A stretch of 52,312 bases of DNA, from contig DYGG01000017.1 in the NCBI GenBank assembly GCA_020724775.1, positions 8,292 through 60,603 of the forward strand. Direction: 5' to 3'. Within the stretch, counting starts at the first letter, position 1. The number at the start of each line of letters is the position of its first letter. A program made the position numbers and the translations under genes. Below are positions 24,672-27,144 of this stretch, one piece after another. Origin of the DNA: Ignavibacterium sp. Its GTDB lineage: Bacteria; Zixibacteria; MSB-5A5; GN15; PGXB01. A model generated the notes under the pieces. The model did not search any database and was not told the origin of the DNA. It saw only the letters and a program-made list of their open reading frames with translations.

Positions 24672-24855
24672 GGGGGGACGGTTTCAAAGCAGGTACACAT
24701 GGAAATTGAAACACTGTCAAAAAAGTCCTCATGTTGGGTGATGTACCAAGGGCTTTCAAGTCAAGAGGCGCTTATTGGGACCGAACTTTTGTTTGGATTG
24801 AAAAACTGCGGAGTCTATTTTCACTGAAAATTCTCGTGGCAGAAAGGACTTAGTC

Positions 24856-25485
24856 ATTAATTCGACAAAATCGACGGTCGTTTACCCGTCTCTGCACACA
24901 TTCCGTTCGCCAAAGCTGCAGAGTGTGGTGGCTGAATCAATAGCGTTTCTGCTGAAGACACCTGTACACCCGCTGCCGCCTGGAGAATCATTTGAGGGAG
25001 TTGGCGTGTATGTCATTTATTATCGGGGAAGTTTCGAGCACTACCAGTTCCTTGCCACTGCAAACAAATCTAGGTGCATAATGCCCATTTACGTGGGCAA
25101 AGCGGTACCTTTGGGATGGCGAACGGCGCGGGCTGGAAGGGAACAGGTGACGAGAAGCCTTTATGGACGATTACGTGAGCATGCGCGAAGCATAAATAGC
25201 TGTAGCAACTTGGCGATCGAGGACTTCCTCTGCAGGTTTATGATACTGGAAGGCATTGAGACGGACCTAATCACAGCGGTCGAAGCGAAGTTGGTTCGCC
25301 TGCACCAGCCTCTGTGGAATTCGCTAATTGACGGATTCGGAAATCATGATCCCGGAAGCGGGCGCTACAACCAGGCAAAATCTGAATGGGATGTGCTCCA
25401 TCCCGGAAGAATGTGGGCTGAGCGTCTGACAGGTAAGCCACCCAAGCTACAGAACATTCTCGCAAAGTTGAAAGTCAAGACATGA
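24856..25485 (+). CDS. Eco29kI-like GIY-YIG restriction endonuclease
   Basis: Type II restriction enzyme of the GIY-YIG fold. In the part starting at GTG 24925 (186 aa) the active-site set is Y29 (GVGVY), Y56 (IYVGKA), R82 and H86 (GRLREH), E120 (VEAKL) and N132 (PLWNS). The spacings equal those I recall for Eco29kI (Y49, Y76, R104, H108, E142, N154). GFGNHDPGSGRY and EWDVLHPGRMWAERLTG also match. The 186-aa form lacks about 20 N-terminal residues. The frame is open upstream to 24802 and contains no ATG, GTG or TTG; ATT at 24856, 7 bases after AAGGA, would give 209 aa (Eco29kI is about 214). Its stop abuts the end of the minus-strand methyltransferase. Confidence 0.88.
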   Translation: MNSTKSTVVYPSLHTFRSPKLQSVVAESIAFLLKTPVHPLPPGESFEGVGVYVIYYRGSFEHYQFLATANKSRCIMPIYVGKAVPLGWRTARAGREQVTRSLYGRLREHARSINSCSNLAIEDFLCRFMILEGIETDLITAVEAKLVRLHQPLWNSLIDGFGNHDPGSGRYNQAKSEWDVLHPGRMWAERLTGKPPKLQNILAKLKVKT

Positions 25486-26898
25486 TCAGCGTTTGCGAAG
25501 TTCTACTACCGCTTCGTAGAGACTGTCTGAAGATTTTGCCTTGCCGACTCTAACGCCTGACTGGATGATACTGTTGCCGATCCGAGTGGCACGTGGAATG
25601 TGGATGTCTACTACTTCAAGACCAATGGATTCGGCGATCTTCGCCAAATAGCGGTCTGTGGGAATCATTACCCCCTGAAGGATATTGTTGCCGATTACAA
25701 TGAGTGCAGTTCCCCGCCTGCGCAGAGTCCATTTCGCGCACTTGAGAAACCGGTAGCAATCGTTGAAATATGCCGCTGCGTAGTTTGCCCAGCCGTTTCC
25801 CCCATAAATGCCCTTTTCTGGTTTCTGTGCTCGAACCAATTCCAAAGACCTCACTAGCTCAGCATCAGGATTTGGAAAATCCAATACGAGACGGTCAAGT
25901 TCTCGCACAGTCTGCCAGTATTTTCCGAAGTTGTCCTGTTCAAGTGGGCGAAAATCTTTCGGCGCGTTGGTGAAGCCGAGCCAATAGAGGTGTGGTCTGG
26001 TATTGCGGTTGTAATGGTAATTGTTCAAATACGGTGGTGACGTGATCATCAAATCCACCACGCCAGAATCGAGATGCTGTCTGCAATTGAAGAACGACGT
26101 ATTGTATATCCGTGAGTTAATAGCATTCGTCCCTACTTGGTCTCGCATCCAATCAATATCTTTAGACATCTGACGAAGCTTCGCTGTGATCGCCTCCCCT
26201 ACGGGGAAATCGAAGATGTCACGCTTTCCGCCGGTGACACGACGGCTGAGACTTGGTTCGTACGAGTAATTGGAGTAGGAGACCATCGTACTTGCAAATG
26301 CCAAGGAGAAAAGGTCTCGAACAGTGCCAGCTACATTCTTCGCCAAGAAATCCTGGAGTATGAGGACCTTGTAAAGGACTTTGGGGCTGTAAAACGCAGA
26401 CCGGGTGGAAAATCCTTGAGGAGGCGTGGAGAAAGGTCGGTACTCATTTTGACTGGCGTGATCGTAAAACACTTCAAAGTCCCTGATGGCCGCCCGAAGT
26501 TTCTCGGTATTGACGCGGTGGGCCATAAGTTTCAGGCGACAAGCCATGGCGGCGTACGGGTTGATCTCGAATCCAATTACGTCGTGACCAGCCAGTATAC
26601 TCTCCACAAGGGTTGTTCCTACACCGGCAAAGGGATCGAGAACCGTTCCCGGTTTAGAAAGGTATCGCGAAAGTGCATCGGAAACGAAATTGCGCGAGAA
26701 TCCGGCAATCCACGGTACCCACCTGTGAATTGGGATCTCCTTGTTAACGGCAAAGGAGGGATCAGAGAACCCCCCGCCGTTTGGCACGGCTGCGTCAGAC
26801 TTGACCACCGTGTCACCAAAAAGCGATGGCTGGTCGATTACGGAATCTAGCTTTTTCACACACGTAAACTGCGAAGACAAACGGTGAGTGTCAATCAC
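25486..26898 (-). CDS. DNA amino-methyltransferase of island 2 (TSPPY type)
   Basis: 470 aa, start GTG at 26898. Motif I VLDPFAGVGTTLVES (about residues 85-99) precedes motif IV MITSPPYLNNYHYN (about 285-298), with a downstream region GKYWQTVRE and FNDCYRFLKCAKWTLRRRGTALIVIGN. TSPPY is most usual in N4-cytosine methyltransferases, though N6-adenine cannot be excluded. It converges on the restriction gene with no bases between the two stops, so it is most likely the protecting methylase. The recalled Eco29kI partner is a C5-cytosine enzyme, so this pairing is unusual. AT-richer than the core genes. Confidence 0.85.
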   Translation of the reverse strand: MIDTHRLSSQFTCVKKLDSVIDQPSLFGDTVVKSDAAVPNGGGFSDPSFAVNKEIPIHRWVPWIAGFSRNFVSDALSRYLSKPGTVLDPFAGVGTTLVESILAGHDVIGFEINPYAAMACRLKLMAHRVNTEKLRAAIRDFEVFYDHASQNEYRPFSTPPQGFSTRSAFYSPKVLYKVLILQDFLAKNVAGTVRDLFSLAFASTMVSYSNYSYEPSLSRRVTGGKRDIFDFPVGEAITAKLRQMSKDIDWMRDQVGTNAINSRIYNTSFFNCRQHLDSGVVDLMITSPPYLNNYHYNRNTRPHLYWLGFTNAPKDFRPLEQDNFGKYWQTVRELDRLVLDFPNPDAELVRSLELVRAQKPEKGIYGGNGWANYAAAYFNDCYRFLKCAKWTLRRRGTALIVIGNNILQGVMIPTDRYLAKIAESIGLEVVDIHIPRATRIGNSIIQSGVRVGKAKSSDSLYEAVVELRKR

Positions 26899-26912
26899 AT
26901 TCTTCAGTTACA

Positions 26913-27080
26913 GTAGGTCGGGTTCTGAGTCCGAATCGGGTCGGTTCTCGGTTGCGTGAGGATGAATAACCCGACATCTACATCATTCCTCAAATTAGTC
27001 TTCGTATTTTGGAATGTCGGGTTTCTCGTCCCGCGACCGCCAGATGACTCGAAGATTGCGGGACTCGGAACCCGACCTGC
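26913..27080. repeat. GTCGGGTT palindromic repeat element, copy 1
   Basis: Outer arms at 26913-26932 and 27061-27080 are inverted repeats matching in 18 of 20 bases (core AGGTCGGGTT / AACCCGACCT). Inner arms AACCCGACAT (26968-26977) and ATGTCGGGTT (27014-27023) are a perfect inverted pair. GTCGGGTT thus occurs in alternating orientation, a REP/BIME-like layout. It lies between the island-2 methyltransferase and recA. Related copies are at 28302-28346 and 44947-45099. Confidence 0.7.
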
Positions 27081-27144
27081 GTTCCAATTATATAATATCC
27101 GGTTCGCACTCGCGCTCCAACTTTTTTTTCAATATCACATTTTT

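Follow-up and report, generated by a model that had tools for sequence, protein, structure and literature searches.

Convergent genes for an Eco29kI-family endonuclease (R) and an N4-cytosine-type methyltransferase (M), located in the 52,312-nucleotide stretch of Ignavibacterium sp. DNA that we analysed (hereafter the window), very probably form a complete Type IIP restriction-modification (R-M) cassette of the R.DraR1/M.DraR1 kind—a mobile unit through which CCGCGG in the host would be m4C-marked and unmarked DNA cut, from a family whose protective chemistry would have changed several times. We take the "DraI R-M system" of Deinococcus radiodurans (R.DraR1/M.DraR1) to be distinct from the TTTAAA enzyme DraI. 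In the mechanism we propose, M would N4-methylate the inner C of the host's own CCGCGG sites, the GIY-YIG enzyme would cut CCGC/GG in incoming DNA lacking the m4C mark, the cassette would have inserted between thpR and recA, and the endonuclease family would have switched several times between N4-C and C5-C methylases, in one direction or the other, presumably keeping its target; the sequence cut, the base methylated and activity in the host are predicted from characterised relatives. The gene pair itself is ordinary, and the repeated exchange of chemistry is the interesting part.

A convergent pair between thpR and recA

The pair and its surroundings comprise the following features:

24672..27090, no strand: inserted island of ~2.4 kb between thpR and the recA promoter region, delimited by thpR-recA spacing in relatives and by homology to G077, which resumes at 27091
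24844..24848, + strand: putative Shine-Dalgarno-like AAGGA, read from the sequence, 7 nt before ATT 24856
24856..25485, + strand: Eco29kI-family (GIY-YIG) Type II restriction endonuclease gene (R), from the PF09517 and 3mx4 matches, six catalytic residues and start analysis
25486..26898, - strand: M.DraR1-like N4-cytosine-type DNA methyltransferase gene (M), 470 aa, GTG start, from PF01555, identity to the CP1 methylase and motifs
26911..27082, no strand: 172-bp element with inverted ends (arms 26915-26932/27061-27078) between M and recA, with a copy elsewhere

R matches PF09517 (RE_Eco29kI) at 218.5 bits (profile search, cut-off 30.8, E 5.9e-65) and, in phmmer, the solved Eco29kI chains 3mx4 (E 7.1e-60), 3nic and 3mx1, all at E 7e-60 to 1.4e-59; it is 48.6% identical to the Eco29kI endonuclease over 182 aa and ~39% identical to R.DraR1. 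The active site of R.Eco29kI is reported to consist of Y49, Y76, R104, H108, E142 and N154 (PMC1952068), and a preliminary description had placed all six in R at the spacing of Eco29kI. All six equivalents are indeed present (Y52, Y79, R105, H109, E143 and N155, numbered from 24856), and their spacing is that of Eco29kI with the sole exception of the Y76-R104 interval, which is 28 in Eco29kI vs. 26 in R. In the 113 family members whose partner was typed, a count that omits 4 rows without one, the only departures at the six residues are a single gap at Y49 and a single C at N154.

M matches PF01555 (N6_N4_Mtase; profile search, E 1.4e-10) and carries an FxGxG-type motif I, DPFAGVGTT (residues 88-96), ahead of TSPPY (residues 286-290). 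TSPPY recurs in 63/63 aligned methylases, the window's and M.DraR1 included, and motif I in nearly all. The stops of the two genes abut (R TGA 25483-25485; M stop 25486-25488, - strand), which, together with the motifs and the PF01555 match, bears out the convergent amino-methyltransferase of the preliminary description. Among plasmid-borne sequences, M comes closest to the methylase of D. radiodurans plasmid CP1 (46.8% identity over 426 aa), presumed to be M.DraR1 because the latter is reported to lie on that strain's small plasmid (PMC6712171).

Of 10 same-family genomes, 7 have thpR and recA ~180-200 bp apart, uninterrupted, compared with 2,594 bp in the window; the remaining three are G077 (same genus), where different sequence precedes recA at a contig end, and G083 and G080, with no thpR in the stretch fetched. 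The G077 sequence (L253:1-407) is unrelated to the window, so the gap may have taken up insertions repeatedly. The same convergent pair lies beside unrelated genes in 2 genomes of one genus, belonging to another family of the same order. That the pair interrupts thpR-recA here and adjoins unrelated genes in those two other-family genomes indicates a mobile cassette. Another contig of the same genome carries a copy of the 172-bp element with 75% identity across 171 bp. A consensus scan of the island found 5 promoter-like sites, 3 of them just upstream of recA, vs. 2.2 (sd 1.4) in shuffles, and 1 terminator-like site vs. 2.7 in shuffles.

The start of R departs from that of its relatives. In its frame, the stretch from the preceding stop (24799) to GTG 24925 contains no ATG, GTG or TTG, and the conserved N-terminal HTFRS box lies upstream of that GTG with no such codon preceding it in frame, vs. 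a candidate start ahead of the box in 22/22 inspected relatives. Either R starts at ATT 24856, or it is truncated or attenuated; ATT, a very rare start codon, is the best candidate. An R with no standard start codon ahead of its conserved N-terminus may be weak or dead, and a decaying cassette—M active, the R start codon lost, M in effect an orphan—would also accord with the loss of R elsewhere in the family, where, among the best 80 of 155 methylase relatives, R is missing at 18 loci and represented at 7 only by a weaker, partial or remote match. We nevertheless regard such decay as unlikely, as R keeps an unbroken frame and its full set of catalytic residues, ATT is preceded by a well-spaced AAGGA, and a weak ATT start would be a plausible brake on a toxic endonuclease gene.

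Protective chemistry and recognition site

M.DraR1 is reported to make C(m4C)GCGG, on the basis of SMRT sequencing, a knock-out, mass spectrometry and protection assays (PMC6712171), and R.DraR1 to be an Eco29kI-like enzyme whose cleavage of CCGCGG is blocked by m4C and far less by m5C (PMC10855626). M.DraR1 is the nearest characterised methylase, and homology to it upholds the suggestion, made in the preliminary description, that a CCGCGG-type site is protected by m4C. We also weighed whether M could be an N6-adenine enzyme protecting a different or overlapping site, given that its Pfam family unites N4C and N6A enzymes, and find this scarcely credible: its TSPPY is the same as that of M.DraR1, for which mass spectrometry and SMRT data are reported to show m4C with m6A unchanged (PMC6712171), and CCGCGG contains no adenine. 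The preliminary description had considered a C5 methylase encoded elsewhere as an alternative protector of the site; a PF00145 search found none in the window's own genome, which is 95.7% complete (an unassembled one is conceivable).

Relatives of both halves, Eco29kI-type endonucleases and M.DraR1, point to the same site, which supports CCGCGG as the predicted target, a specificity assigned at 47-49% identity. At such identity the site may instead have drifted, with M and R sharing another GC-rich sequence, and CCGCGG is indeed avoided no more strongly in the host than in an endonuclease-free relative. Counts in a sample of the window's own genome (343,853 bases) were 161 observed vs. 160.1 expected under a maximal-order model or 251.0 under a second-order model; in same-genus G077, which has no endonuclease, they were 100 vs. 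105.2 or 175.8. The second-order observed/expected ratios are 0.64 and 0.57, respectively, with no clear signal of a restriction footprint in the host beyond G077. We consider drift improbable all the same, as relatives of the two halves, drawn from two distinct R-M systems, are each reported to act on CCGCGG (PMC1952068, PMC6712171, PMC10855626), and the equivalents of H108 and N154, to which a role in specific binding is ascribed in Eco29kI (PMC1952068), are conserved in R. In the same samples (L213-L232 plus the window for the window's own genome, G000; L233-L252 for G077), two other hexamers are scarce under the second-order model: GGGCCC (11 observed vs. 96.2 expected in G000; 9 vs. 62.7 in G077) and GGATCC (8 vs. 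106.7; 3 vs. 69.0).

An AlphaFold2 model of M built from 32 sequences (pLDDT 85.5, pTM 0.84) has mostly helical stretches between motifs I and IV (~114-255) and after TSPPY (~295-391). M.DraR1 has been labelled an alpha-class amino-methyltransferase (PMC6712171), a class whose target-recognition region lies between those two motifs; with helices on both sides of TSPPY, the model of M does not confirm that label. Foldseek placed Dam first, and a second aligner placed Trm11-type tRNA methylases at the top (6zxv, Z 16.1, rmsd 2.9, 181 aligned), followed by many Rossmann methylases at Z 13-15. No DNA N4-cytosine methylase appeared by title among the matches listed (50 per table) in either search, which is no evidence of absence.

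The tailed Haloarcula virus HJTV-2 (MZ334513) likewise carries an N4C methylase (31.1% identical to M) convergent with an Eco29kI-family endonuclease, and differs from the window in that the pair is virus-borne and has a Trm112-like gene between M and R. The whole viral pair lies at L011:2989-5240, where gp45, weakly Trm112-like (PF03966, 21.5 bits, cut-off 22), overlaps the end of M; a Trm112-like gene stands beside M only in the three loci holding the HJTV-2 record. This protein has been read as an RNA-methylase activator (PMC8651126), and it may instead serve the DNA methylase, because one aligner puts Trm11, including the Trm11-Trm112 complex, closest to the predicted structure of the window's M.

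Known systems and distribution of the pairing

The window shares its six catalytic residues with the Eco29kI system of plasmid pECO29, whose R precedes M on one strand and whose partner is, as the preliminary description stated, a C5-cytosine methylase; in the window, by contrast, the partner is of N4C type (PF01555 with TSPPY) and convergent. In its combination of an M.DraR1-like N4C methylase with an Eco29kI-family endonuclease it resembles D. radiodurans, where R and M are ~10 kb apart rather than abutting tail to tail. The gap there (within L004, NC_000959.1 7000-26000) contains genes for a Tn3-family transposase and an integrase. The m4C-type combination is also reported for Roseiflexus castenholzii and Roseiflexus sp. 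RS-1, the latter with R and M fused in one ORF (PMC10855626), unlike the separate genes of the window. A natural M-R fusion occurs in our Chloroflexota draw at L203:5133-6686 (G992), with an N4 methylase remainder and an Eco29kI-type endonuclease in a single 518-codon frame; this genome may be Roseiflexus sp. RS-1 itself.

The Eco29kI-family/m4C pairing of the window is thus already in print for D. radiodurans, where it was shown experimentally in 2024 (PMC10855626), and no other publication on it was found in the open-licence PMC literature, among the matches listed. Both ideas of the preliminary description, exchange of methylases within the family and, by homology, m4C protection, stand, and the pairing is not new. 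The same paper names three cases only and tallies 310 m5C systems vs. 3 m4C (PMC10855626).

To gauge the pairing from the methylase side, we scanned GTDB species genomes with an alignment of M, which yielded 155 relatives, and kept the best 80, calling R linked where a match to the Eco29kI family scoring 150 bits or more lay within 105 bp of the M 3' end (HMM search, six frames). Among these best 80 of 155, 55 loci have an Eco29kI-type gene at the M 3' end, 43 convergent and 12 on the same strand, and with 55/80 loci linked we reject chance adjacency. The 55 paired loci span 18 phylum names, 2 of them archaeal, with 3 loci lacking a phylum name; 6 of the 55 pairs are from Pseudomonadota, and the 3 Methanoregula loci come from one assembly. 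The weaker, partial or remote matches include L056, which is adjacent and scores 122 bits, and at 17 of the 18 loci without R no endonuclease was seen by eye in the neighbour listings. At L074:10347-11783, a second, different TSPPY-type methylase lies shortly downstream of an endonuclease-free M.DraR1-like gene. Distances between R sequences and between M sequences are correlated (63 pairs, r 0.694; none of 2000 permutations as high): within N4 systems, the two genes diverge together.

From the endonuclease side, we drew genomes by phylum and searched them with PF09517, which avoids selecting by M, covering the groups of six seed genomes and the window's own phylum. Matches were found in 12/398 genomes of the Pseudomonadota group, 2/292 of Cyanobacteriota, 21/301 of Chloroflexota, 4/246 of the Actinomycetota group, 2/294 of the methanogen phylum and 8/198 of Nitrospirota (4 of the 6 seed genomes being counted among these matches), and in 3/132 genomes of the window's own phylum, one of these being the window's genome. 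The neighbour survey suggested in the preliminary description, run on 35 typed non-seed loci, gave an N4 partner in 10 (one of them, L196, cut by a contig end), a C5 partner in 23 and neither in 2. By group, the N4/C5/neither counts are 0/11/1 in Pseudomonadota, 0/2/0 in Cyanobacteriota, 7/5/1 in Chloroflexota, 0/2/0 in Actinomycetota, 1/0/0 in the methanogen phylum and 2/3/0 in Nitrospirota, so that m4C pairing is common among the Chloroflexota genomes drawn, with no case among the Pseudomonadota drawn.

This tally leaves out the seeds G132, G135, G136 and G137, which had been picked for their N4 methylase, and ten genomes with a short, split or broken PF09517 match (G903, G838, G855, G1064, G955, G1072, G1119, G1216, G1714 and G1833); the exclusion was not strict, with G878 (split in two) and G992 (126/164 positions) staying in. 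Typed later on short loci, the ten excluded genomes gave N4 in 6, C5 in 2 and neither in 2, and the exclusion therefore gave N4 no advantage. Because 6 of these 10 short, split or broken matches adjoin an N4 methylase (L153, L154, L156, L157, L176 and L177), endonuclease decay may be frequent in N4 systems. In 28 endonuclease loci on viral contigs, 24 have an adjacent C5 methylase, 1 a remote C5 methylase, 1 an N4 methylase (HJTV-2) and 2 neither.

With linked pairs at 55/80 methylase loci (best 80 of 155) and at 10/35 typed endonuclease loci, the Eco29kI family is often found beside TSPPY methylases in genomes, which the preliminary description had named as evidence against its reading. These surveys suggest that m4C pairing is more widespread than reported, and they revise the published REBASE-based view of it as very rare, a rarity that a bias of REBASE toward cultured strains may explain.

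Apparent exchange of partner chemistry in the endonuclease family

We built a quick tree from endonuclease pieces that reached 130 codons and 80 bits, dropping near-copies (127 to 117 rows). Of these 117 endonucleases, 66 have an N4 partner, 47 a C5 partner and 4 none, and the N4 and C5 labels need 13 changes each, of which the starred branches force at least 4 (N4) or at least 5 (C5); with the 4 others omitted there are 12 N4/C5 changes. A more careful tree was computed from a hand-picked subset of 55 rows, leaving out 62, including the long L088, L206, L122 and L011 and the divergent L187, L188, L189 and L191. It requires 8 partner changes (7-8 in bootstraps), at least 5 of them forced by starred branches. 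Constraining this tree to one clade per partner type, as a single origin of each would require, gives a log-likelihood 157 lower and is rejected (p-AU 4e-146). The mixing of N4 and C5 partners in the endonuclease tree agrees with the methylase swapping proposed in the preliminary description, and the family seems to have swapped partner chemistry repeatedly.

Within the 55-row tree, the Eco29kI/Neisseria C5 group (6 rows) joins the N4 row L041 (branch 96/87) and is nested in 20 N4 and 7 C5 rows (94/97); the tree is unrooted, and if its root lies outside the Eco29kI-containing group, N4 would have come first there. The convergent N4 methylase could accordingly be the older and main partner in the Eco29kI branch, and Eco29kI's C5 methylase a substitute that came afterwards, in one of five or more chemistry exchanges during which the endonuclease lineage presumably kept CCGCGG, a history that we regard as evenly balanced between right and wrong. 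If it is true, R-M systems swap their protective chemistry while keeping the cutter.

Such a change around a working endonuclease should be hard, since a cell whose methylase no longer fits its endonuclease would be expected to die. Cutting of m5C-marked sites by R.DraR1 has been reported (PMC10855626), and for that reason protection between m4C and m5C systems may be one-way. The trees make this testable, as cross-protection of m4C- vs. m5C-partnered endonucleases by each other's methylase. Across bacteria, archaea and a virus, one endonuclease family has seemingly exchanged its protective chemistry repeatedly.
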